Shown here piece after piece: positions 3,641 to 53,642 of a stretch of 64,000 bases of DNA. The position numbers and the translations under genes are program-made. Numbering within the stretch: the stretch's first letter is position 1; every line of letters begins with the position of its first letter. The DNA is from Stutzerimonas kunmingensis (lineage in GTDB: Bacteria > Pseudomonadota > Gammaproteobacteria > Pseudomonadales > Pseudomonadaceae). The stretch is taken from assembly GCF_021432085.1 (NCBI RefSeq), contig NZ_CP090366.1, positions 2,294,001 to 2,358,000 on the forward strand, given 5' to 3'. The notes below the pieces were generated by a model that searched no databases, was not told the DNA's origin, and was given only the letters and a program-made list of their open reading frames with translations.

Positions 3641-4690
3641 TCACGCTGCCTTTGATGTTTGCTGCAGTACCGCTTCCCGCTCCGGGTTCAGGCACACGAT
3701 TGGTGCCAGCACCCAGTTCCTGATGTTGCCGCTCCAGCGCTCCGGGTGCCGTGCACGCGCCGCCTCGTACAGCTCGATACGCTTGCGCAGCAACTCTTCC
3801 GCCTGGCCAGTATGTCGCTGCGCCGGGGTCACGAACTTCAGGGCGCTGTGGCGATGTTCATGGTTGTACCAGGCCACGAAGCTGTTCACCCAGTTCCTGG
3901 CCTGCTCCAGCGTGTCGAAGGGCCGCTCCGGCCACAGCGGGCAGTACTTCGCCGTGCGGAACAAGGCCTCGGCATAGGCGTTGTCATTGCTCACCCGCGG
4001 GCGGCTGAACGAGGGCATCACACCCAGGTTCTGCATGGCCGCCAGCATGGTCGAGCCCTTCATCGCGCTGCCGTTGTCCGAGTGCAGTACCAGCGGCTGG
4101 CCTGCCCGCTGTTCACGTAGGCAGGCCTGGCGTAGCAGCTGGGCGGCCTGCTCGGCGCTTTCACTTTCATGCACCTCGTTGGCCACCAGCTTCCGGCTGT
4201 AGACGTCCTTGATCATGTACCAGTAGAAGTAACGGCCCTTGACCGTGGTCGGCAGCCAGGTGATGTCCCAGCACCACAGCTGGTTCGGGCCGTCGGCCAC
4301 ATGGGTCGTCAGCGCTCGTTTCACCGGTGGGCGGCTACGGCCGCGCGGATGCTGCTGTTCGGCGTCCTTCAGCAACCGGTAAAAGGTCGACTCCGAGGCC
4401 AGCCAGGTGCCCTGATCGGCCAGCCGCGCCACGATCTGCTGCGGCGGCAGGCTGGCAAACTCGGGCTGGTTGGCGACCTCCAGCACGCGGCGGCGCTCTT
4501 GCGGGGTCAGCTTGTTGGCCGGCTCAGCTCGCTGTGCCGAAGGACGCCGATCCTCCGGGCAGTGCTGCCAGCGCTGCAGGCTGCGCAGCGACAGGCCCAG
4601 TTCGGCGCAGGCCTGCGCCCGCCGCGCTCCCGCCGCCACGGCGTCCTCGATCAACTGCAGCGTTTCACGGCGATCCGGGGCGCTGATCAT
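3641..4690 (-). CDS. IS3-family transposase OrfB (DDE integrase domain)
   Basis: About 349 residues. An N-terminal HTH_21-like segment (residues about 45-115) is followed by an rve/DDE integrase core. The first Asp is in WCWDITWLP, the second in LHSDNGSAMKG, and the Glu in NDNAYAEALFRTAKY, the order and spacing of the IS3 catalytic triad. The C-terminus has the WYNHEHRHSALKF motif. The ATG overlaps the orfA stop (ATGA), and orfB lies in the -1 frame relative to orfA. Active enzyme is normally the OrfAB fusion made by frameshifting. The frame is complete with no visible decay. Confidence 0.93.
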   Translation of the reverse strand: MISAPDRRETLQLIEDAVAAGARRAQACAELGLSLRSLQRWQHCPEDRRPSAQRAEPANKLTPQERRRVLEVANQPEFASLPPQQIVARLADQGTWLASESTFYRLLKDAEQQHPRGRSRPPVKRALTTHVADGPNQLWCWDITWLPTTVKGRYFYWYMIKDVYSRKLVANEVHESESAEQAAQLLRQACLREQRAGQPLVLHSDNGSAMKGSTMLAAMQNLGVMPSFSRPRVSNDNAYAEALFRTAKYCPLWPERPFDTLEQARNWVNSFVAWYNHEHRHSALKFVTPAQRHTGQAEELLRKRIELYEAARARHPERWSGNIRNWVLAPIVCLNPEREAVLQQTSKAA

Positions 4691-34842: not shown

Positions 34843-36120
34843 TCATGTCGCGCTTGACCCGTCGTAGAGCGGTTTCCGACGAGCGCCCGGTTTGGCCAGC
34901 AGCAGCTGTGCGGTGCCGATGGCGCGCTCGATGAAGCCGCCCTCGCAGTAGCACAGGTAGAACTCCCAGAGCCGGTAGAAATAGTCGTCGTAACCGTGGC
35001 GCTCCAGCTCGCCGCGGGCGCGGCGGAAGTTCTCGTGCCACAGGCGCAGGGTGCGCGCGTAGTGTTCGCCGAAGTCCTCCATGTGCAGCAGGTTCATGTC
35101 CGAGTCGCTGGTTACGACATTGAGCATGCGCTGCATGGAGGGCAGGGCACCGCCGGGGAAGATGTAGCGCTGGATGAAGTCGACGCTGCGGCGCGCCTGT
35201 TCGTAGCGCTGGTCGCGAATGGTGATGGCTTGCAGCAGCATCAGCCCGTCGTCCTTGAGCAGTCGCGAGCACTGCCGGAAGTAAGTCGGCAGGAAGTCGT
35301 GGCCGACCGCTTCGATCATTTCGATGGACACCAGCTTGTCGAACTGACCGTCGAGATCGCGATAGTCCTTGAGCAGCAGGGTGATGCGGTCCTGCAGGCC
35401 CTGTTCTTCGATGCGCCGCTGGGTGTAGGCGAACTGTTCGCGCGACAGCGTGGTGGTGGTCACCCGGCAGCCACGGTGGATCGCGGCATAGAGCGCCATG
35501 CTGCCCCAACCGGTGCCGATCTCCAGCAGATGGTCCTCGGGCTGCAGGTCGAGCTTTTCGCAGATGCGTTCGAGCTTGTGCAGCTGGGCCTGTTCCAGAT
35601 CCTGTTCGGGGCTGGTGAACATTGCCGCCGAGTACATCATGGTCGGGTCGAGAAACTGCTCGAAGAGCTCGTTGCCGAGGTCGTAATGGGCGGCGATGTT
35701 GCGCTGTGAGCCGCTGCGGGTGTTGCGGTTGAACCAGTGCAACGCCTTGATCACCGGCTGGCCGAACAGCGCCAGGCTGCCCCGCTCGATGTTGTCGAGC
35801 ACGTCCATGTTGGCGACGAACAGGCGGATCACCGCGGTCAGGTCCGGGCTGTGCCAGTAGCCGTGAATGTAGGCTTCGCCGGCGCCGATCGAGCCGCGCG
35901 CGGCGATCAGGCCCCAGGCGGCACTGTCGGTTATATGAATTTCTGCCTTGAGCGGGCTCGCCAGATCGCCGAACTGCTGGCAGACATCGCCGTGTTGCAG
36001 TCTCAGCAACCCGTGGCGCAGGTGTTCGAGCTGATTCAGCACGGTACGGCGCAGCAGGCTGCTGGCCAGTCCCATGCCCGCCAGCGGACGGGCTTTGACG
36101 GTCAGGCTAGGGCTCTTCAT
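34843..36120 (-). CDS. Cfa/UfaM-like SAM-dependent fatty-acyl methyltransferase
   Basis: About 425 residues, the length of cyclopropane-fatty-acid synthases. SAM site [15 protein letters not shown] (about 195-210), then [37 protein letters not shown] (active-site Glu) and [14 protein letters not shown]. The N-terminal domain covers about 1-120. Members of this subgroup beside DUF1365 and FAD-oxidoreductase genes act on unsaturated phospholipid chains; UfaM makes the methylated intermediate of furan fatty acids, and ufaM is a light-induced gene in P. putida. Here it overlaps the DUF1365 gene by 14 bp. Choice between cyclopropane and methyl/furan product is not settled by sequence. Confidence 0.88.
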
Positions 36121-36922
36121 GGCGGGCTCCGGTGGGTTGCGTGACGGCCAGCCCGTACGCCGTGGTAGCGGGCTGATGGGTGAAGATCGGTGTGCGCTTG
36201 AGCAGCAGGCGCAGCGCCTGCCAGTAGATGGCGAGCAGGGTCTTGGCGGTCATCCAGGGGAAGCCGAGCAGGTAGCGGTGCACCGCGCCGCAAGTCAGCG
36301 CCTGGCGTTGCAGACCGAGGGTGGCGTCGAACAGCTTCTGCTCGCCCTGCCAATCCTCCATGTGCACGCCGATGCGTCGTCCCGGCGGGTTGAAGCGCAT
36401 GCGGTATTCCAGCTCGCCGGGCAGGAACGGCGAGACGTGGAAGGTCTTCGCCACCGTGCAGCGCAGGTTGCGATTGCCTGATGCCGGCAGCACGTAGTGA
36501 TAACGCTCGCGCCAGGGCGTGTTGCTGACTTCGCAGAGCACCGCGGTCAGCTGTTCCTGTTCGTCGAAGCAATAGAAGAAGCTGACCGGGTTGAAGCACA
36601 GCCCCCAGCTGCGCGGCTGGGTCAGCAGGCGCACGGCACCGGTGACCGGCCGCCCGAGGGCTTCGCTGACCCGCTGGCGGACCGCGTCGGCCAGCGCGAT
36701 GCCCTGGCTGGTGTATTGCGGCAGGTAGTCGCGCTCGCGGAAGGAAAATGCGGCGAAGCGGGCACGCCCACTCAGGGGCGAAAGCCCGAGCACGGCGTCC
36801 TGTTCGGCCAGGTCGAGGTACAGCAACCCCATGCGATAGCTGAACGCATGGGCCCGCGGCGCGAAGCGCCGATGCTGCACCCAGCCGCTGTACAGCGCGC
36901 TGTGCACGATGGCGCTGCTCAC
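36107..36922 (-). CDS. DUF1365 family protein
   Basis: About 271 residues starting at GTG 36922, which overlaps the stop of the FAD gene (GTGA). Family features: SALYSGWVQHRRFAPRAHAFSYRM at the start, RSWGLCFNPVSFFYCFD, EVSNTPWRERYHYVL and KTFHVSPFLP. Its biochemical role is not known. It is nearly always found between an FAD-dependent amine-oxidase-like gene and a Cfa-like gene in light or singlet-oxygen regulons, which points to a lipid-modifying step. No membrane helix is clear. Confidence 0.88.
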   Translation of the reverse strand: MSSAIVHSALYSGWVQHRRFAPRAHAFSYRMGLLYLDLAEQDAVLGLSPLSGRARFAAFSFRERDYLPQYTSQGIALADAVRQRVSEALGRPVTGAVRLLTQPRSWGLCFNPVSFFYCFDEQEQLTAVLCEVSNTPWRERYHYVLPASGNRNLRCTVAKTFHVSPFLPGELEYRMRFNPPGRRIGVHMEDWQGEQKLFDATLGLQRQALTCGAVHRYLLGFPWMTAKTLLAIYWQALRLLLKRTPIFTHQPATTAYGLAVTQPTGARHEEP

Positions 36923-38166
36923 AGCGACTCTCCGAAGGCGGCGGCGACGCGCAACGCGCTGACCACACCGTCCTCGTGGAAGCCATTGCCCCAGTAGGCA
37001 CCACAAAAGTAGCTGTGCCGGGCGCCGAGGAGTTCGTCGGCACGGGTCTGCGCGACGATGCCGGCCAGGCTGTATTGCGGGTGGGCGTAGGAGAAGCGCG
37101 CGAGGATCAGGTCCGGATCGATCGCTTCGCTCTGGTTGAGGCTGACGCAGAAGGTTTCCGGCGACTCGATGCCCTGCAGGATGTTCATGTTGTAGGTCAC
37201 CGCGGCCTGCTGCGCGCTCGGCCCGCCGAGGCGGTAGTTCCAGCTGGCCCAGGCGCGGCGCCGCTTGGGCAGCAGGCGCGTATCGGTGTGCAGCACCACG
37301 TCGTTTGCGGCGTAGCCGATGGCTCCGAGGATCTCTCGTTCGACCCGGCTCGGTTCGGCCAGCAGGCTCAGCGCCTGGTCGCTGTGACAGGCGAAGATCA
37401 CCTTGTCGAAACGCTCGGCACCGGCCGGGCTCTGGATCGTTACGCCGTGCTCATCGCGCAGCACCTCGAACACCGGGCAGTTGAGACGGATGTGCTGGCT
37501 GAAACCCCGCGTCAGTGGCGATACATAGGCGCTGGAGCCGCCTTCGACGACATACCACTGCGGGCGATCGCTCACCGACAGCAGCCCGTGGTTCTTGAAG
37601 AAGCGGATGAAGAATTCCACCGGGAATTCCAGCATGTCGGCCAGCGACATCGACCAGATCGCCGCCCCCATCGGCACGATGTAGTGATCGATGAAGCGCT
37701 GGCTGTAGCGGCCCAGCTCGAGATAGGTACCCAGGGTGACGTGGGCACCGAGGCGGCCGTGCTTGTAGTCGTCCAGTGCTTCGCGGTTGAAGCGCAGGAT
37801 GTCGCGAATCATGCGCCAGAAGGGCAGCGAGAACAGGTTGCTGCGCTGGGCGAACAACGTGTTGAGATCGTGGCCGTTGTATTCCAGGTCGCTGAGCGGA
37901 TCGCTCACCGAAAAGCTCATTTCGGTCGGCTTGTAGCGCACTCCGAGCTTGTCCAGCAACTTGATGAAGTTGGGGTAGGTCCAGTCATTGAAGACGATGA
38001 AGCCGGTGTCCACCGCGTAGTCCCGGCCGTGCAGACGGAAGTCCACGGTATGGGTGTGGCCGCCGATCCAGCTGGCCGATTCGAACACTGCGACCTGGTG
38101 CTGACGGGACAGCAGATGCGCACAGGTAAGTCCGGCAATACCGCTGCCGATGATGGCGATTTTCAT
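36919..38166 (-). CDS. FAD-dependent amine-oxidase-like oxidoreductase (fatty-acyl desaturase candidate)
   Basis: About 415 residues. It begins with a perfect FAD Rossmann motif (KIAIIGSGIAGLTCAHLL) followed by GGHTHTVDF and AVDTGFIVFND, and ends with the FCGAYWGNGFHEDGV segment that closes the FAD fold. This protoporphyrinogen-oxidase/amine-oxidase family includes the flavin desaturase of bacterial furan fatty acid synthesis. The neighbours (SDR, DUF1365, Cfa-like) fit that role. The ATG at 38166 lies 2 bp after the SDR stop. Confidence 0.88.
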   Translation of the reverse strand: MKIAIIGSGIAGLTCAHLLSRQHQVAVFESASWIGGHTHTVDFRLHGRDYAVDTGFIVFNDWTYPNFIKLLDKLGVRYKPTEMSFSVSDPLSDLEYNGHDLNTLFAQRSNLFSLPFWRMIRDILRFNREALDDYKHGRLGAHVTLGTYLELGRYSQRFIDHYIVPMGAAIWSMSLADMLEFPVEFFIRFFKNHGLLSVSDRPQWYVVEGGSSAYVSPLTRGFSQHIRLNCPVFEVLRDEHGVTIQSPAGAERFDKVIFACHSDQALSLLAEPSRVEREILGAIGYAANDVVLHTDTRLLPKRRRAWASWNYRLGGPSAQQAAVTYNMNILQGIESPETFCVSLNQSEAIDPDLILARFSYAHPQYSLAGIVAQTRADELLGARHSYFCGAYWGNGFHEDGVVSALRVAAAFGESL

Positions 38167-38168
38167 GG

Positions 38169-38936
38169 TTATCCTTCCTTGAGAGGCGTACGCGCCAGTC
38201 GCCGGCCGAGGGCGAATTGCAGGCGTGCGGGCAGCAGTGAGAGCAGGCGCAGCACAGAGATGAACGGCGCCGGAAACGCGATGTGCAGCGGGCGGCGTTC
38301 CAGCCGTCGGGCGATCTGCCGTGCGGCCTTGTCCGCCGGCCAGCTCATGGGCATGGGAAAGTCGTTGCGACGGGTCAGCGGTGTGTCGACGAACCCCGGG
38401 CTGACGAGGGTGACGTCGATGCCTTCGTTGGCCAGATCCAGACGCAGCGATTCGAGCAGGTAGCGCAGCGCCGCCTTGGATGCGCCGTAGGCTCCGGCAC
38501 GCGGCAACGGCAGCCAGGTCACCGAGCTGCCGACACCGACCAGATGCGGGCGCACCCCTTGGCGCAGCAGTGGCAGTGCCGCCTCGATGCAGTAGCCGAC
38601 GGCGAGCACGTTGGCGCCCATCACGCGCTCCAGCAGCGCCGCGTCGAATCGGCCGGCGTGGATGTATTCGCAGGTGCCGGCGTTGAGGATCACGCTGTCC
38701 AGCGCGCCCCATTGCGTCTGGATGGCGGCGCCGATGTCGCGCACCTGTTCGCTGTCGGTGAGATCGCCGGGCAACACCAGCACACGCCCCGGGTAGCGCC
38801 GGGCAAAGGCCTGCAGCGGCTCGGCGCGGCGTGCCGACAGCGCCAGGCAGTGCCCGTCGGCGAGCAGCTGACGCGCCAGTTCCAGGCCGATGCCACTGCT
38901 GGCGCCGGTCAGCCAGATACGTCGCGAGAGGTTCAC
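38169..38936 (-). CDS. Short-chain dehydrogenase/reductase
   Basis: About 255 residues. NAD(P) motif WLTGASSGIGLELARQL at the start, VILNAG, Ser in GVGSSVTWL and the catalytic YGASKAALRY pair (Tyr and Lys). The start is GTG 38936, overlapping the NTF2-like gene stop (GTGA). Substrate is unknown; its fixed place beside the FAD and DUF1365 genes suggests a step in lipid or isoprenoid modification. Confidence 0.9.
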   Translation of the reverse strand: MNLSRRIWLTGASSGIGLELARQLLADGHCLALSARRAEPLQAFARRYPGRVLVLPGDLTDSEQVRDIGAAIQTQWGALDSVILNAGTCEYIHAGRFDAALLERVMGANVLAVGYCIEAALPLLRQGVRPHLVGVGSSVTWLPLPRAGAYGASKAALRYLLESLRLDLANEGIDVTLVSPGFVDTPLTRRNDFPMPMSWPADKAARQIARRLERRPLHIAFPAPFISVLRLLSLLPARLQFALGRRLARTPLKEG

Positions 38937-39361
38937 GCGAGCCTCCGCTGCAGCCAGCGAATGGCCGCGCCGAGCAGGGGCACATGCTGATAGAGCAGGG
39001 CGCCGGCATCGAAGTAGTCGCGGTGACGGACGACCTTGCCGGCGCCGTTCCAGCGCAGCAGCGAGCAGCCTTCGAGGCTGATCAGCTTGCCGCCGTTCAG
39101 CCGCGGATGTCGGTAACTCATGATCCAGCGCAGATAGCCCTGGCCGTCGCATATCTCATCGTGGCTGATGAACTCGAAATGCAGATGCTCGACGTTGGCA
39201 TACAGCTCGCTGAAATAGCGTTCTAGCTCGACGAGCCCGCAGACCTCATGCAGCGGGTCGGTGAAGTGCACGTCGGCGCTGTAGAGGTCGCGCAGGCGGT
39301 CGAGATTGCTCGCGTCGAGGCGGGCGAACTCGCAGGCGAAGGACTGCAGGAAGCCGCTCAT
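38933..39361 (-). CDS. NTF2-like / SnoaL-like protein
   Basis: About 142 residues, one cone-shaped NTF2-type domain (LRDLYSADVHFTDPLHEVCG, then FEFISHDEICDGQGYLRWIMSYRH, and HRDYFDAGALLYQHVPLLG). Such domains bind small hydrophobic ligands or catalyse simple isomerisations. Its start and stop overlap the photolyase stop (ATGA) and the SDR start (GTGA). The same gene is present in related light-responsive clusters; its role is unknown. Confidence 0.85.
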   Translation of the reverse strand: MSGFLQSFACEFARLDASNLDRLRDLYSADVHFTDPLHEVCGLVELERYFSELYANVEHLHFEFISHDEICDGQGYLRWIMSYRHPRLNGGKLISLEGCSLLRWNGAGKVVRHRDYFDAGALLYQHVPLLGAAIRWLQRRLA

Positions 39362-40788
39362 GCTTGCGCATCCGGCAGGTTGCGGAAGGCATCCAGCGCC
39401 CGCGCCCGGCTGGCGCCGAGGTCGACGATGGGGGCGGGGTACTCGGTTACGCCGAACAGGCTGCGGTGCGCCGACGGGTTATGCACGTCGCGCCTGCTCA
39501 GGTGCTGCAGCTCGGGAAGCCAGCGGCGCAGGAACTGCCCGTCCGGGTCGAAGCGTTGCGACTGGCTGATCGGATTGAACAGGCGGAAGTAGGGCACCGA
39601 ATCCGTGCCGGTGGACGCGCTCCATTGCCAGCCGCCATTGTTGGCTGCCAGGTCGCCGTCGATCAGGTGACGCATGAACCAGCGCTCGCCCTCACGCCAG
39701 TCGATCAGCAGGTTCTTGCTGAGGAACATGGCGACGACCATGCGCAGGCGGTTGTGCATCCAGCCGGTTTCCTGCATCTGGCGCATGGCCGCATCGATGA
39801 TCGGAAAGCCGGTGCGGCCCTGCTGCCATGCTTCCAGCTCGTACGGCGCGCGCCGCCAGGGCAGTGCCTCGGTTTCCGGGCGGAAGGCGCGGTACATGGA
39901 CACCCGCGGATAGCCGACCAGGATGTGCTTGTAGAACTCGCGCCAGAGCAGTTCGTTGATCCAGGTGGTGACGCCGGTGCTGCCGCTGTCCAGCTCGCCC
40001 TGGTTGTAGCCAAGCGCCGCGTGCAGGCACTGGCGGATGGAAATGACGCCAGCGGCGAGGTAGGCCGACAGCTGGCTGGTGCCGGGCTCGGCGGGCAGGT
40101 CGCGGCGCTGGTGGTATTCGTTCAGGTCGTCCTCGACGAACGCTGCCAGGCGCCGCTGGGCGAAGGCTTCGCCGGCTGGCCAGAGCGCGCGCAGATAGTC
40201 CGTGGGTCGCGGAAAACCGGTGACCGTCGTGGGTATCGGGTCACTGGTGATACCCTGCGGCGCCTGGGTCGCAGGCACCGGCTCGCAGGCTGGCAGCGAT
40301 ACGCTCAGGTGGGTGAGGCAGGCCTTGCGGAACTGGCTGAACACCTTGAAGTAGCTGCCCGACTGCGTCTGCACGCTGCCCGGAGTGAACAGCAGCTGGT
40401 CGAGATAGCCGCGCACACTGATGCCGGCCGCTTCCAGGTGCGTGGAAACTGCCTGATCGCGGCGCTGCTCGTTTACCCCGTACTCGTCGTTGTAATGCAG
40501 CCGCTGCACGCCCTGTTCGCGGCAGACCTTCAGCAGTGCGTCGGGTACCGCCTGCCAATCATCGACCTCGCGAATCAGCAGCGGGACGTTGAGCGCGCCC
40601 AGCCGCGTCGACAGCTCGGCGAGGTTACGCAGCCAGAAGTCGACTTTGCAGGGGGCATCGTCGTGGGCGAGCCATTGCCCCGGGGTGACCAGATACAGCG
40701 CCACGGTTGGGCCGCAAGCCATCGCAGCCGCGAGGGCGGTGTTGTCGCTTGTGCGCAGATCGCTGCGCAGCCAGAGCAGCTGGGTCAT
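39358..40788 (-). CDS. phrB: Deoxyribodipyrimidine photolyase (class I CPD)
   Basis: About 476 residues, a standard photolyase length. The N-terminal antenna domain starts MTQLLWLRSDLRTSDNTAL. The C-terminal FAD domain has WINELLWREFYKHIL, RTGFPIIDAAMRQM, WMHNRLRMVVAMFLSKN and the NNGGWQWSASTGTD segment. It repairs UV-made cyclobutane dimers using blue light. FolE and FolX of the nearby operon could supply pterin precursors for its antenna folate. It overlaps the MerR gene by 4 bases (ATGA), so it is co-expressed with its likely regulator. Confidence 0.95.
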   Translation of the reverse strand: MTQLLWLRSDLRTSDNTALAAAMACGPTVALYLVTPGQWLAHDDAPCKVDFWLRNLAELSTRLGALNVPLLIREVDDWQAVPDALLKVCREQGVQRLHYNDEYGVNEQRRDQAVSTHLEAAGISVRGYLDQLLFTPGSVQTQSGSYFKVFSQFRKACLTHLSVSLPACEPVPATQAPQGITSDPIPTTVTGFPRPTDYLRALWPAGEAFAQRRLAAFVEDDLNEYHQRRDLPAEPGTSQLSAYLAAGVISIRQCLHAALGYNQGELDSGSTGVTTWINELLWREFYKHILVGYPRVSMYRAFRPETEALPWRRAPYELEAWQQGRTGFPIIDAAMRQMQETGWMHNRLRMVVAMFLSKNLLIDWREGERWFMRHLIDGDLAANNGGWQWSASTGTDSVPYFRLFNPISQSQRFDPDGQFLRRWLPELQHLSRRDVHNPSAHRSLFGVTEYPAPIVDLGASRARALDAFRNLPDAQA

Positions 40789-41720
40789 GACGCACTCCCT
40801 TCGCTACCGGGCAGCAGGCCGGCGCCATGCAGCTGCTGCAGGGCGCCGAGGGGACCCTCAGCGAGCATCAGCCCGCGATGTCGGTGCAGCTCGGGTGCAT
40901 GGATATGAACGGCCGGCCCGGCCACACAGAGCGGCGCGACGCTTTGCTCGATCAGACGCGGCAGGTCGCGTTGCAGGCAGTTGCCCGGCAGGCTGTTGCT
41001 CGCATAGAGCAACAGGGCGCGCGGCAGGATGCGCTCCATCGCCAGGTTCAGCTCGTTTAGCGGTACCGGCCACTCGACGACTTCAACTGGGCAGTCGGTG
41101 CTGGAGACGAGCCAGGCGGTCAACCACAGACCGGGTGCGAAGGACTCGTTATCCAGATTGGCGAGCAACAGCGGACGCCCGACCTGCTGCCGGTTGTTGA
41201 AATAGATGCGGGTCGCCAGTTTGCTGCGCAGCCAGGAATGAACCAGCGCCCGCTCCACCGCTGCACCGTACTGGCCCTGCCAGCGCTGTTCGAGTGCCTC
41301 GAGCAGCGGATGCAGCAGGTGCTGACAGAGCGTGCGCGGCGGATACAGCGCCATGGCCCGGTTGAAGGCATCGTCCAGGCGTCGTTCGCTGAGGCGGTCG
41401 ATGGCCTGCAGCAGCTCTTCGAGCAGCTCCGACCACTGGTTCTGCCTGGGCAGCTCCTGCGGCGTGGTGGTGTCCAGCAGCGGCTTGATCTGGCTGACCG
41501 AAACGCCGCGATTGAGCCAGGTGAGGATGTCGCGGATGCGCTGGATATGTGCTTCTTCGTACAGCCGATGACCCTTGGGCGTGCGCAGCGGGACGATCAG
41601 CCCGTAACGGCGCTCCCAGGCACGCAGGGTCACAGCGTTGACGCCGGTGATGCGCGCCACTTCGCGGATCGGCAGCAGGCCGTCGGCCGTCAGCTGCGTC
41701 AGGTCCGTTGATTCATTCAT
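40785..41720 (-). CDS. LitR/CarH-like MerR-family regulator (photoresponse)
   Basis: About 311 residues. MerR-type HTH at residues about 16-85 (LPIREVARITGVNAVTLRAWERRYGL is the start of it), then a helical domain and a C-terminal Rossmann-like domain resembling the B12-binding part of LitR/CarH. The segment equivalent to the CarH cobalamin-ligating motif (ExHxxG-like) reads DNESFAPG, so the key His is missing. That matches the class II LitR proteins (PplR) of P. putida, which take their light signal from LOV proteins rather than B12. It is cotranscribed with phrB and probably represses the TGTACA-bearing promoters here. Confidence 0.85.
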   Translation of the reverse strand: MNESTDLTQLTADGLLPIREVARITGVNAVTLRAWERRYGLIVPLRTPKGHRLYEEAHIQRIRDILTWLNRGVSVSQIKPLLDTTTPQELPRQNQWSELLEELLQAIDRLSERRLDDAFNRAMALYPPRTLCQHLLHPLLEALEQRWQGQYGAAVERALVHSWLRSKLATRIYFNNRQQVGRPLLLANLDNESFAPGLWLTAWLVSSTDCPVEVVEWPVPLNELNLAMERILPRALLLYASNSLPGNCLQRDLPRLIEQSVAPLCVAGPAVHIHAPELHRHRGLMLAEGPLGALQQLHGAGLLPGSEGSAS

Positions 41721-41722
41721 GT

Positions 41723-42682
41723 TCAGATTCCGTTGCGCAGGCTGAGGGTTTCGGGATGCGGCTGCATGTAGGCCTGGCGTGCGACGTAATGATCGGGATG
41801 CCGACGGAAGTGGTGCTTGAGCAGGGTCAGCGGCACCACCAGCGGAATGACGCCGGCGCGGTACTGATCGATGAGGTGGCGCATCTCGCGGCGGTCCTCC
41901 GCGCCAAGCGCGTCCTTGAGGTAACCGCTCAGATGCAGCAGCACGTTGCAGTGCGTACCGCGGGTGGCCGGCTTCTTCAGCGCCTGCATCAACTGGCTGA
42001 AGTACTGCGGTGCGAACTCCTCCAGCGAGTGTTCGGCCAGTTGCGCGACCAGCCGGCCGAGCACCTTGTACTGCAGCGGGTTGCTCGCCATCAGCTGGTA
42101 CTTGTAGCGCGAGTGGAAATCGACGATGGCCCGGCGGCTGAGGCCGGCCTGACGCAGGCGCTGCCAGTCGGCATGGGCATAGACGCGGGTGAGGAAGTTT
42201 TCGCGCAGTACGGCATCGTTCAGGCGCCCGTCCTCTTCGACAGGCAGATCCGGACAGGCCTGCATCAGCGCCTGGGCGAACACACCACTACCACCTCCGG
42301 GCTGGGTGTGGCCGTTGGCGGCATAGACCTTGACCCGCGCCATGCCGCAGGACGGCGATTTCTGCATAAGGATGTAGCCGTTGATGTCGTGCAACTGCTC
42401 GGCGATCTGCCGACCGTAGGCGGCGAGGGCTTCGGTGACATCCAGCTCGGGACGTACGGTGCCGACAGCCTTTGGTGCGTCGGTGTCGCCGACCAGGCGG
42501 ATCGGCTCGCGAGGTGTGCCAAGGCCGATGGCAACCTCCGGGCACACCGGCACGAACTCGAAGTGCTGCGCCAGGGTCTCGCTGCACAGGCGCGATTCCT
42601 TGTGGCCACCGTTGAAACGCACCGGATTACCAAGCAGGCAGGCGCTGATTCCGATCTTGGGCGTGGGGAGCTTGGTGTGCAT
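41723..42682 (-). CDS. DUF523-DUF1722 fusion protein
   Basis: About 319 residues. N-terminal DUF523 (KIGISACLLGNPVRFNGGHK, later SPSCG) with paired cysteines that suggest a metal or Fe-S site, then a DUF1722/YbgA-like C-terminal half (FHSRYKYQLMASNP, LLHLSGYLKD). Function is not known; YbgA-type genes commonly adjoin phr genes. It is the first gene of the operon, with its stop 2 bp before the MerR ATG. The start is placed at MHTKLPTPKIG because the upstream in-frame ATGs run into the operator region. Confidence 0.82.
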   Translation of the reverse strand: MHTKLPTPKIGISACLLGNPVRFNGGHKESRLCSETLAQHFEFVPVCPEVAIGLGTPREPIRLVGDTDAPKAVGTVRPELDVTEALAAYGRQIAEQLHDINGYILMQKSPSCGMARVKVYAANGHTQPGGGSGVFAQALMQACPDLPVEEDGRLNDAVLRENFLTRVYAHADWQRLRQAGLSRRAIVDFHSRYKYQLMASNPLQYKVLGRLVAQLAEHSLEEFAPQYFSQLMQALKKPATRGTHCNVLLHLSGYLKDALGAEDRREMRHLIDQYRAGVIPLVVPLTLLKHHFRRHPDHYVARQAYMQPHPETLSLRNGI

Positions 42683-42696
42683 GATGGCGACCTCGT

Positions 42697-42794
42697 CTTG
42701 TACAAGTTGGGTTTCTGTACAACTTGTGGCCATCATAATCGCGGTGTTGTACAAGTCAATACATGATGTACAAGTAAGTGCATAATCCTGTACA
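42697..42794. promoter_or_regulatory. Array of five TGTACA boxes in the divergent control region (LitR/PplR operator candidate)
   Basis: TGTACA starts at 42699, 42716, 42748, 42767 and 42789 (gaps between boxes 11, 26, 13 and 16 bp), far above chance in this GC-rich DNA. The published P. putida PplR1 site is T(G/A)TACA-N12-TGTA(C/T)A; spacings of 11 and 13 here are one off. The 322-bp gap (42683-43004) separates the photolyase operon from the epimerase/hemH pair and holds no gene. Confidence 0.7.
42732..42759 (-). promoter_or_regulatory. Sigma-70-type promoter of the photolyase operon with TGTACA in the spacer
   Basis: On the minus strand, TTGACT (-35), a 16-bp spacer and TATGAT (-10). The box at 42748-42753 begins right after the -35, so a bound MerR dimer would sit between the two promoter elements. 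On the plus strand a CATAAT (42781-42786) with a box upstream at 42767 may serve the epimerase/hemH genes. Confidence 0.6.
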
Positions 42795-43004
42795 AATGTC
42801 GTCAGCGAATGGCCTTGGACAGATGTCGCTGCGTTCAGAGGGGATGCTTTGGTGGCTGAGCGACCCACAGAGTTTTAATGTGTGCCAGTGCCTCAACCGA
42901 AGCGGTGGCGTGAAAATGCTGTACGGTTCATATGCCCGTGTATAGGTGTATGCTTTCAAGCAGGTCGTCAAACCCGCGCAATGGCTGCGCGCCAGGAGCT
43001 CACC

Positions 43005-43907
43005 ATGAACATCTTGTTGACGGGCGGTACCGGGCTGATAGGACGCGCGCTGTGCCGGCGCTGGCTGGCGGACGGCCATCGGCTGTGGGTGTGGAGCCGC
43101 ACGCCGCAACGCGTTGCCATGCTGTGTGGTGCCGAGGTGCAGGGCGTGGGCAGTTTGCAGCAACTGGATGCCGTGGAGCTGGACGCGGTGGTCAATCTGG
43201 CCGGCGCCCCCATCGCCGATCGGCCATGGACCAAGTCGCGCAAGGCGTTGCTATGGGACAGTCGGGTCAAGCTCACCGAACAGCTGGTCGAGTGGCTGGG
43301 CCGGCACGAGCAGAAGCCGGCGCTGCTGATCTCCGGTTCCGCCGTGGGGTGGTACGGCGATGGTGGGGAGCACCGCCTGACCGAAGCCGATCAGCCGGTC
43401 TCCTCCGATTTCGCCAGCCAGCTGTGCAATGCCTGGGAAGAGCGCGCGATGGAGGCGACGGTGCTGGGCATGCGCGTGGTGCTGGTGCGTACCGGGCTGG
43501 TGCTGGCGCGTGACGGCGGCTTTCTCCAGCGCTTGCTGCCGCCATTCAGGCTAGGCCTGGGTGGGCGCATCGGCGATGGTCGGCAATGGATGCCGTGGAT
43601 TCATATCGAAGACCAAATCGCCCTGATTGATTTTCTTCTGCGCCAGCCGGCGGCAAGCGGGCCTTACAATGCCTGTGCGCCGGCCCCGGTGCGCAACGTC
43701 GAGTTCACGCGCAGCCTTGGCCGCTGCCTGCATCGCCCGACGGTATTGCCAGTCCCGGCAGCGGTGCTCAAGCCCCTGCTCGGCGAGTTGGCCGGATTGC
43801 TGCTCGGGGGGCAACATGCGTTGCCGCAGAGGGCCGAGGCGGAAGGTTTTCGCTTCCGTTTCAACGATCTGGATTCAGCCCTGGCCGACCTATTGACGCC
43901 TCCCTGA
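43005..43907 (+). CDS. TIGR01777-family NAD(P)-binding epimerase
   Basis: About 300 residues. Rossmann start [20 protein letters not shown], then [44 protein letters not shown] and the [15 protein letters not shown] segment, all typical of the YfcH/TIGR01777 group. Substrate unknown. The ATG at 43005 is preceded by AGGAG. It reads away from the photolyase operon across the TGTACA array and is followed by hemH after 80 bp. Confidence 0.88.
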
Positions 43908-43987
43908 AGGTGGCGCCCTGTGTGAAAATAGCGCGCCCCCCGCTTGGGGTACGGCGCAACCTAAAAAACAGTAGTCAGGAAAGTTGC

Positions 43988-45013
43988 ATGACAGAGCAGG
44001 CGTTGTTGTTGGTCAATCTGGGTTCGCCGGCCTCCACGGAAGTCGCTGATGTACGCCGCTACCTCAACCAGTTTCTGATGGATCCGTACGTTATCGATCT
44101 GCCGTGGCCGTTGCGGCGCCTGCTGGTCTCGCTGATCCTGATCAAGCGCCCCGAGCAATCGGCGCATGCGTACGCCTCGATCTGGTGGCCGGAAGGTTCG
44201 CCGCTGGTGGTGCTGAGCCGCCGTCTGCACGAGGCGGTACGTCCGCACTGGACGCAGGGTCCGGTGGAGCTGGCGATGCGCTACGGCGAGCCCTCCATTG
44301 AGACCACGCTGACGCGTTTGGCCGGGCAGGGCATCACCCAGGTTACCCTGGCGCCGCTTTATCCGCAGTTCGCCGACAGCACCACGACGACGGTCATTCA
44401 GGAAGCGCGCCGGGTCATCCGCGAGCGCGGACTGTCTCTGCAGTTGTCGATCCTGCAGCCGTTCTACGACCAGCCGGAGTACCTCGACGCGCTGGTCGCC
44501 AGTGCCAGGCCGCATCTGCAACAGGATTTCGATCATCTGCTGCTGAGTTTCCACGGGCTGCCCGAGCGTCACCTGCACAAGACCGATCCAACCGGCGCGC
44601 ACTGCCTTAAGGGCGATGATTGCTGCCAGCGTGCCGAGGGCGAGGTACTCGCCAGCTGCTACCGCGCGCAGTGCATGCGCACCGCCGCCGGCTTCGCGGC
44701 GCAGGCCGGGTTGCGTGACGATCAGTGGTCGGTGTCTTTCCAGTCGCGCCTCGGCCGCGCCAAGTGGATCGAGCCCTACACCGAGACGCGTCTCGACGAG
44801 CTGGCGCAGCAGGGCGTGAAGAAGCTGCTGGTGATGTGCCCGGCCTTCGTCGCCGACTGCATCGAAACCCTCGAGGAGATCGGCGATCGCGGTCGTGAAC
44901 AGTTCATCGAGGCAGGTGGCGAGGAACTGGTGCTGGTGCCCTGTCTGAATACCCACGAGGATTGGGTAAAGGCGCTGGTGACACTCTGCGGGCGCGCGCC
45001 TCTGGCACTCTGA
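43988..45013 (+). CDS. hemH: Ferrochelatase
   Basis: About 341 residues. [21 protein letters not shown] at the N-terminus (split motif LVNLGSP), [10 protein letters not shown] with the catalytic His, CLKGDDCC and the [15 protein letters not shown] loop, and [15 protein letters not shown] with the active-site Glu region. It inserts Fe2+ into protoporphyrin IX to finish haem. The start at 43988 has AGGAA upstream. Lying behind the same TGTACA array as photolyase, it may be light-induced to clear photosensitising protoporphyrin; that is inference. Confidence 0.94.
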
Positions 45014-47890: not shown

Positions 47891-48331
47891 TCAGTTCTGC
47901 GCGAGCTTCGCCTTCAGTTCGCGAATCTCGGCTTCCAGCGCTTCGACGCGTTGCAGGGCGTCGACCTCGGCGGTGACGTTCTTCTGGATGCCAATGAAGT
48001 AGGTCAGCTGATCGGCCTCGTTGAACACCGGCGTGATGGAAAGCTCGTTCCAGAACGGCGTGCCGTCCTTACGGTAGTTGCGGATGATCTGGCGGCACGG
48101 CTGGTTGTTCTTCACCGCCTCGCGGATGGCCTGCAGGGCCGGCTGGTCGCGGTCCTCGCCCTGCAGGAAGCGGCAGTCGCGGTAGAGGATGTCGTCCACC
48201 GGGTAACCGGTCAGGCGCTCGAACGCCGGGTTGGCGTAGATCAGGATGTTGTCATCACCTTCCTGTTCGGCGACCACGATCCCGTCGTTGGAGGCTTCGA
48301 TAACCAGTTGCAACAGCTTGGCATTGATCAT
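47891..48331 (-). CDS. Short LOV photoreceptor (PpSB1-LOV-like)
   Basis: About 146 residues: a single LOV/PAS domain with short helical caps. The flavin-adduct motif reads RDCRFLQGEDRDQ with photoactive Cys53; other LOV features are YANPAFERLTGY, NYRKDGTPFWNELSITPV and YFIGIQKNVT. The C-terminal helix (VEALEAEIRELKAKL) is a coiled coil for dimer formation. It closely resembles the short LOV proteins of P. putida, which are needed with LitR-type PplR regulators for light-induced transcription. It is the last gene of the folE operon (77 bp after the DUF3833 gene), so the receptor would be made with the response it controls. Confidence 0.92.
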   Translation of the reverse strand: MINAKLLQLVIEASNDGIVVAEQEGDDNILIYANPAFERLTGYPVDDILYRDCRFLQGEDRDQPALQAIREAVKNNQPCRQIIRNYRKDGTPFWNELSITPVFNEADQLTYFIGIQKNVTAEVDALQRVEALEAEIRELKAKLAQN

Positions 48332-51625: not shown

Positions 51626-51700
51626 GACGGTTCCTTTTGTGCGCCGGGCGCTGTTGCGTGGAGGGGAATGCTGTTGCATCGATGAGAGATGCGATAAAGC

Positions 51701-51736
51701 TATACGGATATTGCTTCTTGTACAGGTAAATGTACA
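51701..51736 (-). promoter_or_regulatory. TGTACA operator/promoter of the folE-LOV operon
   Basis: Boxes at 51719-51724 and 51731-51736. On the minus strand, TGTACA (51724-51719) is followed after exactly 12 bp by CGTATA (51706-51701), a 11/12 match to the PplR1 consensus T(G/A)TACA-N12-TGTA(C/T)A and a plausible -10 (TATAGC) overlap. A third box at 51827-51832 lies just before the DUF6482-like gene on the other strand. Confidence 0.65.
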
Positions 51737-52601: not shown

Positions 52602-52619
52602 TTCATCGCATCTTGCATT

Positions 52620-52636
52620 TGTACAACGTTTGTAGA
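52620..52636. promoter_or_regulatory. TGTACA-TGTAGA operator in the DCC/MerR divergent region
   Basis: TGTACA (52620-52625) and TGTAGA (52631-52636), 5 bp apart. A TTGTAC/TATGCT pair could act as -35/-10 toward the MerR gene. This matches the theme of the other two control regions and suggests autoregulation. Confidence 0.55.
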
Positions 52637-52694
52637 GGGTATGCTGCGAAACGCTGGGTTACAATCTCGGCATTCTTTTCCAGCGAGCCGCCAC

Positions 52695-53642
52695 ATGACC
52701 GATTCTTCCGGCGCTTCGAACCTGGCCTCGAGCGCCTTCGAGCAGCAGGATCTATTCCCTATCCGTGAAGTTTCCCGCCTGACCGGGGTCAACCCGGTCA
52801 CCTTGCGCGCGTGGGAGCGCCGCTACGGGCTGATCCGGCCGACCCGGACCGAGAGCGGCCATCGCCTGTACTCGATGGCCGACGTGGAGGCGGTTCGCAG
52901 CATTCTTTCCTGGACCGAGCGTGGCGTGGCGGTAAGCAAGGTCGGCAGCATACTGGCGCGCAGCGCAGCGACCCGCGAGGCAGAGGAACCGACCGCAACC
53001 CCCAGTAGCGAGTGGAACGAGTGGCAGGGGCAACTGCGTGATGCGGTGAATGGTTTCGACGAGGTGCGGCTGGAGCAGCTATACGGCCAGATCTTCTCCA
53101 CCTATCCGCTGGCTGTGGTGTTTCAGGATGTCCTGTTGCCGGTGTGGCAGGAGCTGCTGCTGCGTCAGGAGGAATTTGGCGGTACCAGCGAGTGGCTGTT
53201 TCTCGATGCCTTCCTTCGTGCCCGGGCGCTGCAGCGGCTGCAGCTGGCCCGTATGCCGGCTGGCGAGCGTGTACTGCTCGCCGCGATGCCGGGGCAGTGT
53301 CGCGAGCTGGAATTGCTCGTGGCGGGCCTGATGCTCAGTGGCGACAGCCTGGCCGTCAGCGTGTTGCCGATCGGGCAGCCGCTGGAAGAACTCGCGCTGG
53401 TCTGCGACAAGATGAAACCGCAGGGGCTGGTGCTGTTCTCCAACGTTCCCCATGGCGAGGCGCAGTTGCGCCAGCTCAACAAGCTGTCCCTCGCGCTTGA
53501 TTGCTCCTTGGCTTTGGCCGGGGAGGCGGCCGAACTGGGTCGTGAAGCGCTGGCGGGTACGCCGATCGCCTGCCTCGGCAGTTCCGGCAAGCTGATGCAG
53601 CGCCGTCTGCGCCAGTTCCTGGCCGGCCAGCTGGATACCTGA
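52695..53642 (+). CDS. Second LitR/CarH-like MerR-family regulator
   Basis: About 315 residues. HTH at about 20-90 (FPIREVSRLTGVNPVTLRAWE; ERRYGLIRPTRTESGHRLY), then the same two-part C-terminal layout as the other MerR gene. The equivalent of the cobalamin His motif reads PGQCRELE, with Arg in place of the ligating His, so B12 binding is unlikely. P. putida has three such PplR paralogues that act together, two of them paired with LOV genes; two paralogues lie within 12 kb here. It has its own TGTACA boxes, and pqqF follows after 38 bp on the same strand. Confidence 0.85.
   Translation: MTDSSGASNLASSAFEQQDLFPIREVSRLTGVNPVTLRAWERRYGLIRPTRTESGHRLYSMADVEAVRSILSWTERGVAVSKVGSILARSAATREAEEPTATPSSEWNEWQGQLRDAVNGFDEVRLEQLYGQIFSTYPLAVVFQDVLLPVWQELLLRQEEFGGTSEWLFLDAFLRARALQRLQLARMPAGERVLLAAMPGQCRELELLVAGLMLSGDSLAVSVLPIGQPLEELALVCDKMKPQGLVLFSNVPHGEAQLRQLNKLSLALDCSLALAGEAAELGREALAGTPIACLGSSGKLMQRRLRQFLAGQLDT

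Follow-up and report, generated by a model that had tools for sequence, protein, structure and literature searches.

Five TGTACA boxes at the rudS-litR1-phrB promoter of Stutzerimonas kunmingensis as a probable clade variant of a known LitR operator, and a predicted second operator upstream of yfcH-hemH

The closest described counterpart of the locus analyzed here is the P6650 promoter of Pseudomonas mendocina, which carries two TGTACA-N12-TGTACA sites, with Site 2 located between the start site and the ATG codon; footprinting of the class II LitR repressor PmlR2 on this promoter revealed protection from approximately -54 to +37 (PMC9758184). In the same study, repression by PmlR2 was relieved by the illuminated PmSB-LOV protein in run-off transcription in vitro, and light raised phrB and ufaM 25-33 fold. 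The illuminated PmSB-LOV strips PmlR2 from DNA in BIAcore experiments, whereas in the gel shift the LOV-LitR complex is still on DNA, so that the two assays disagree (PMC9758184). The first gene behind P6650, PME6650, is called hypothetical there; judging from its operon, we infer that it is a rudS orthologue. RudS removes 4-thiouridine (s4U) from tRNA, and rudS, litR and phrB were named as a single LitR-controlled operon with a citation of the P. mendocina study (PMC11417400). The operators of the adenosyl-B12-dependent regulators CarH/CarA consist of tandem 11-bp repeats nnnnTnnACAn (PMC9304148).

We analyzed a stretch of 64,000 nucleotides of the S. kunmingensis genome (hereafter, the window). 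The initial annotation had reported five exact TGTACA copies in one 98-bp region with gaps of 11, 26, 13 and 16 bp, all of which were confirmed, together with the minus-strand promoter TTGACT-N16-TATGAT (42759 to 42732), in which one box directly follows the -35 hexamer:

42699..42704, second TGTACA box of Site 2
42716..42721, first TGTACA box of Site 2, in the predicted 5' leader
42732..42737, minus strand, -10 hexamer TATGAT of the rudS operon promoter (promoter scan)
42748..42753, inner TGTACA box of Site 1, within the -35/-10 spacer
42754..42759, minus strand, -35 hexamer TTGACT of the rudS operon promoter (promoter scan)
42767..42772, outer TGTACA box of Site 1, just upstream of the -35 hexamer
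42789..42794, fifth and outermost TGTACA box, separated by 22 bp from its neighbor on the upstream side; clade-limited

The proposal that such a cluster is far beyond chance also held, as none of 300 dinucleotide-shuffled versions of the window had more than two TGTACA copies in any 98 bp. The window as a whole contains 17 copies, compared with 3.8 expected, and 17 copies were reached in none of 100 shuffles. The promoter is the sole sigma70-like match in 42650-43050 (1 versus a mean of 0.2 in shuffles). A genome-wide count of TGTACA pairs, suggested in the same annotation, identified 8 places with a gap of at most 30 bp in the 4.78-Mb genome versus 2 for the reversed control pattern; four of these 8 places fall within the five-box cluster, and a further one, at 51719, precedes folE. 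The locus has two TGTACA-like pairs on a sigma70 promoter, one over the -35 hexamer and the other in the leader, and the pairs are N13 and N11 instead of the published N12.

The genes around the promoter are as follows:

34843..39361, minus strand, further operon genes within the part analyzed: SnoaL-like, SDR, two ORFs, cyclopropane-synthase-like
39358..40788, minus strand, phrB, DNA photolyase (profile match)
40785..41720, minus strand, litR1, class II LitR type (MerR_1, MerR and B12-binding_2; CarH chains matched)
41723..42682, minus strand, rudS (TudS-DUF1722), first operon gene (PF04463 and PF08349)
43005..43907, plus strand, yfcH (TIGR01777 oxidoreductase)
43985..45013, plus strand, hemH, ferrochelatase (PF00762, E 1.1e-96)
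47891..48331, minus strand, short LOV photoreceptor ('sensory box' LOV chains including 3sw1, E 5.7e-54)
52695..53642, plus strand, litR2, second LitR paralogue (NCBIfam profile and LitR search)

The description of this region as a divergent promoter proved loose: the intergenic region spans 322 bp, and the boxes occupy 112 bp beside rudS, about 210 bp from yfcH. The five boxes serve rudS and not the divergent gene, which is yfcH, with hemH in second position. The candidate operon combines a litR gene, a photolyase gene and, in the ufaM position, a cyclopropane-synthase-like gene whose family match is below the curated cut-off. Its other profile matches are SnoaL_2 and adh_short, and the two middle ORFs were read by eye as a FAD oxidoreductase and a DUF1365-like protein. 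LitR1 possesses the MerR helix-turn-helix domain and B12-binding_2 only, without a full B12-binding domain; the domain evidence for LitR2 consists of NCBIfam profiles only. The short LOV protein has cysteines at positions 53 and 79, including the photoactive Cys53, and both LitR genes and this photoreceptor gene are located within about 11 kb of the promoter. Named loci encoding a 99-100% identical LitR1 belong, among others, to S. kunmingensis, to S. chloritidismutans and to a strain carrying the label S. xanthomarina, from which the window's genus (g1) is taken to be Stutzerimonas. In two related genomes litR1 contains one in-frame TGA (G015:C1:195718-196608 and G088:C26:161645-162535).

We estimate at roughly 0.9 the probability that the five boxes act as an operator for rudS-litR1-phrB, with repression by class II LitR and light release via the short LOV protein. 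The anatomy of this operator and its conservation are directly visible; LitR binding, repression and light release are proposed by analogy with the P. mendocina counterpart. In the dark, a class II LitR, most likely LitR2 and perhaps also LitR1, would bind at both box pairs, which frame the promoter, Site 1 covering the -35 hexamer and the spacer and Site 2 lying in the leader, and would thereby keep RNA polymerase off. Blue light would form the Cys53-flavin adduct in the short LOV protein, which in its light state would bind LitR and take it off the DNA. The release of LitR would allow expression of the operon, and hence s4U removal from tRNA, DNA repair by the photolyase, and lipid modification. 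The suggestion of two dimers in the initial annotation is compatible with the published Sites 1 and 2.

By searching the family to which the window belongs, rudS was matched in 138 of 148 genomes, and 125 upstream regions were used after dropping 13 partial or weak matches. A four-box scaffold (at most four mismatches in total) was identified in 80 of these 125 promoters, compared with 1 of 2500 mononucleotide-shuffled promoters, and 44 of the 80 have zero mismatches. The spacing is 18-32-18 in 27 scaffolds, 18-33-18 in 19 and 18-31-18 in 7 (53/80 altogether); the 18-bp (N12) spacing is found in the first pair of 64 and in the last pair of 67 scaffolds. We did not treat exact N12 as defining, since 16 and 13 of the 80 promoters, respectively, depart from 18 bp. 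The remaining 45 of the 125 promoters did not reach the scaffold cut-off; in one genus (g6), 12 of 13 promoters are without the scaffold and 10 of 13 have one exact pair. The resulting family picture, in which four boxes are spaced at roughly 18-32-18 bp with a tolerance of about one base, can serve as a guide for experiments on binding.

The genus-weighted box logo, Y-TGTACA-R, has roughly palindromic nearest flanks, and an A at position -3 is present in 56, 69 and 59 of the 80 scaffolds for boxes 1-3 and in 32 for box 4. These features bear on the alternative that LitR binds in the fashion of CarH, with head-to-tail DNA-binding domains on direct repeats, each TGTACA being a one-sided TnnACA half-site. 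In its favor, TGTACA agrees with the TnnACA of the CarH repeat (PMC9304148), the A at -3 is common in boxes 1-3, all five window boxes read A-N-T-TGTACA on the promoter strand, and the fifth box lies 22 bp (2 x 11 bp) upstream. However, the A at -3 of box 2 belongs to the -35 hexamer, the nearest flanks are close to palindromic, and the usual family distances of 18 and 31-33 bp contain no tandem 11-bp units. The window itself shows no tandem 11-bp repeats, with box-to-box distances of 17, 32, 19 and 22 bp; LitR1 gave no full B12-binding domain match, and both LitR proteins, at 91.2 and 94.5 bits, fall far short of the 400 bits required for the CarH equivalog. We consider CarH-like binding unlikely.

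The spacing of the window scaffold, 19-32-17, occurs in 3 of the 80 family scaffolds, all in the window's own genus. We analyzed a larger sample of 46 Stutzerimonas regions, taken via the assumed divergent adjacency of rudS and yfcH; the scaffold was not found in 13 of them, in some of which rudS is not divergently beside yfcH. Among the 33 scaffold promoters, 18 from related genomes possess the 19-32-17 spacing, and 15 carry an additional exact box that precedes the scaffold by 22 or 23 bp on its upstream side. The 17- and 19-bp spacings occur in Stutzerimonas genomes that carry class II LitR. The initial annotation had read the departure from N12 as a somewhat different arrangement. By this comparison the departure is real, but the family scaffold tolerates 17 and 19 bp, and because the clade variant keeps the 68-bp total of 18-32-18, it appears to be a lineage variant of the known operator and not a new arrangement; the fifth box, judging from its distribution, is a clade-specific addition. 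It can be speculated that the shifted spacing is an adaptation that alters how LitR units pair, as the total is held at 68 bp in all 18 promoters. However, a spacing of 17 or of 19 bp is also seen on its own in other genera, the 18 genomes are related, and neutral one-base indels explain the pattern equally well, which makes such an adaptation rather improbable.

The search for further members of the LitR regulon using the N12 consensus (at most three mismatches) was abandoned: this consensus does not discriminate, since it gave 170 genome-wide matches compared with 201 for the reversed control. A strict pattern with Y/R flanks found only Site 2 of the window, Site 1 being missed by design. 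Several other TGTACA sites were observed. The region upstream of folE (51700-51725 and 51719-51736) contains CTATACG-N12-TGTACAG and a second exact box; it resembles the published P. mendocina folM site and is probably another LitR target. Upstream of litR2 (52619-52644), the box TTGTACAA has a weak partner and can also be read as an 11-bp near-repeat, ATTTGTACAAC GTTTGTAGAGG. At another locus (L160, genome 4288042-4288077), a TGTACA pair surrounds a TGTCAC-GTGACA palindrome, and nearby ORFs were read by eye as a chemotaxis receptor and a cupin protein. Finally, two TGTACA boxes, 31 bp apart in the window clade, bracket a promoter region from which a polyprenyl synthetase gene and a gene read as type 2 isopentenyl-diphosphate isomerase (Pfam: FMN_dh) diverge (L002 1501-1537, genome 440339-440375). 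Closely spaced boxes are present at this crtE-fni promoter, a possible LitR target, in some other Stutzerimonas, even in a genome (G103) without a LitR match at E 1e-20.

One family genome with rudS, G173, gave neither a class II LitR nor a short LOV match at the thresholds applied, and the 601 bases around its rudS start contain no TGTACA. It is a single case, and its rudS promoter may lie elsewhere, since rudS is located there downstream of yfcH on the same strand. That a TGTACA-preferring regulator other than class II LitR uses the boxes, which would fit the differently spaced crtE-fni pairs and their presence in G103, is highly improbable given that the operator shares one operon with a LitR gene, that PmlR2 was footprinted directly in P. 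mendocina, and that the rudS upstream region is box-free in the LitR-less G173.

The claim that the boxes belong to a hemH promoter needs to be divided: the five boxes do not flank such a promoter, but a separate weaker pair is located upstream of yfcH-hemH. This predicted second operator is the new element of the locus:

42920..42944, plus strand, predicted weaker operator TGTACG-N13-TGTATA of the yfcH-hemH promoter (conserved block; pair score)
42949..42954, plus strand, predicted yfcH -10 hexamer TATGCT, 4 nt after the second box (read from the sequence)

The predicted -10 hexamer had no match in the consensus promoter scan. In window-wide scoring, the pair scores 15.5 on the minus strand (fourth there) and 11.5 on the plus strand (seventh there), where pairs at 3864 and 4197 outrank it. 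Shuffled windows contain on average 1.2 pairs of at least 9.5 per strand, with a best score of up to 21.0 in 60 shuffles; the pair is not significant by itself because shuffled windows give comparable pairs. Instead, the support for this putative operator is its conservation. A second conserved block near yfcH is present in 13 of 14 aligned intergenic regions (the window and 13 named loci), being absent in L016. Using a box matrix derived from rudS promoters, we scanned positions -130 to -30 of yfcH for pairs 17-19 bp apart; of 46 Stutzerimonas genomes, 41 have one at a shuffle p of 0.05 or less (34 at 0.01), as do 3 of the 26 genomes scanned from other genera. The 46 genomes are the 48 Stutzerimonas genomes with yfcH minus two (G159 and G175) in which it is too near a contig end; the 26 were drawn from 118 other-genus genomes with yfcH, and 16 of them are top-scoring matches. 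In G072 the best-scoring pair differs from its N12 pair, and G182 passed at a low score of 6.7. A TATnnT facing yfcH exactly 4 nt past the second box is present, as in the window, in 28 of the 41 site genomes, and in none of the 41 at any other offset from 0 to 12. These conservation counts are not independent, since the genomes are related.

The five Stutzerimonas genomes without a yfcH-side site include two with no LitR or short LOV match (G080 and G173) and one of 71% completeness (G162), whose yfcH match is truncated and in which LitR found no match. The remaining two (G015 and G088) have LitR matches, LitR1 being the form with the in-frame TGA, and no hemH within 1.5 kb of yfcH; of the 36 Stutzerimonas loci tested for this, 34 have hemH inside that distance. 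Because one genome (G183) keeps a weak site though its hemH is elsewhere, the gene served by the site may be yfcH and not hemH. A hemH-specific reading was rejected, as the 300 bases 5' of hemH in seven genomes yielded no pair scoring above 0 except one of 4.3 in L239. In G028, which belongs to another genus (g12), rudS and yfcH are separated by an ORF read as a FAD oxidoreductase, and an exact TGTACA-N12-TGTACA precedes the start of this ORF by about 48 bp. The corresponding ORF of the g12 locus L174 (319-1302) has its own TGTACA-N12-TGTACA site (1351-1374), and all 10 g12 loci inspected have a pair at this position, 150 bp before yfcH, which is exact in 9.

Light control of yfcH-hemH is offered as a prediction. 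Tentatively, and at somewhat less than even odds, LOV-LitR would control these genes in Stutzerimonas, and blue light would directly raise the ferrochelatase and the TIGR01777 oxidoreductase, draining protoporphyrin IX as photolyase and s4U removal switch on. If functional, the site would couple light perception in a non-phototroph to haem synthesis, from which a main endogenous photosensitizer arises. Among the papers listed by our literature search, judged from their listings or from passages of PMC9758184, PMC11417400, PMC9304148 and PMC8508746, none reports that LitR or LOV controls ferrochelatase. The main text of PMC9758184, Table S1 aside, contains neither 'ferrochelatase' nor words beginning with 'heme', and the P. 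putida light-response descriptions within PMC9758184 and PMC8508746 do not mention a yfcH-hemH site; the novelty of the site is not proven by this, since that Table S1 and the 2020 P. putida gene list were outside the search.

Among the known systems, CarH/CarA share with the window a related MerR-type regulator, the TnnACA core and an overlap with the -35 hexamer, and differ in their tandem 11-bp repeats, compared with spacings of 17-19 and 32 bp in the window, and in the use of adenosyl-B12, compared with a LitR1 without the full B12-binding domain match (PMC9304148). The PplR1-PplR3/PpSB-LOV system of P. putida KT2440, as described in PMC9758184 and PMC8508746, is also similar: its consensus TRTACA-N12-TGTAYA is like the window boxes and its targets phrB, ufaM, folE and pplR1 are akin to the putative ones of the window, although it has three PplR proteins versus two LitR genes in the window genome (E 1e-20). 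The closest system is that of P. mendocina NBRC 14162, where P6650 has the same TTGACT-N16-TATGAT letters as published, two TGTACA pairs at the -35 hexamer and in the leader, an operon with litR, phrB and a ufaM-type gene, a class II LitR and a short LOV protein with Cys53 (PMC9758184). The window differs from it in pair spacing (N13 and N11 versus N12), in the fifth upstream box, and in gene location, with litR1, the LOV gene and litR2 within about 13 kb, whereas the pmlR1 and pmlR2 regions are different loci in P. mendocina. The comparison places the window promoter, with high probability, in a known and studied blue-light system, to which the clade-specific spacing and the fifth box are its additions.
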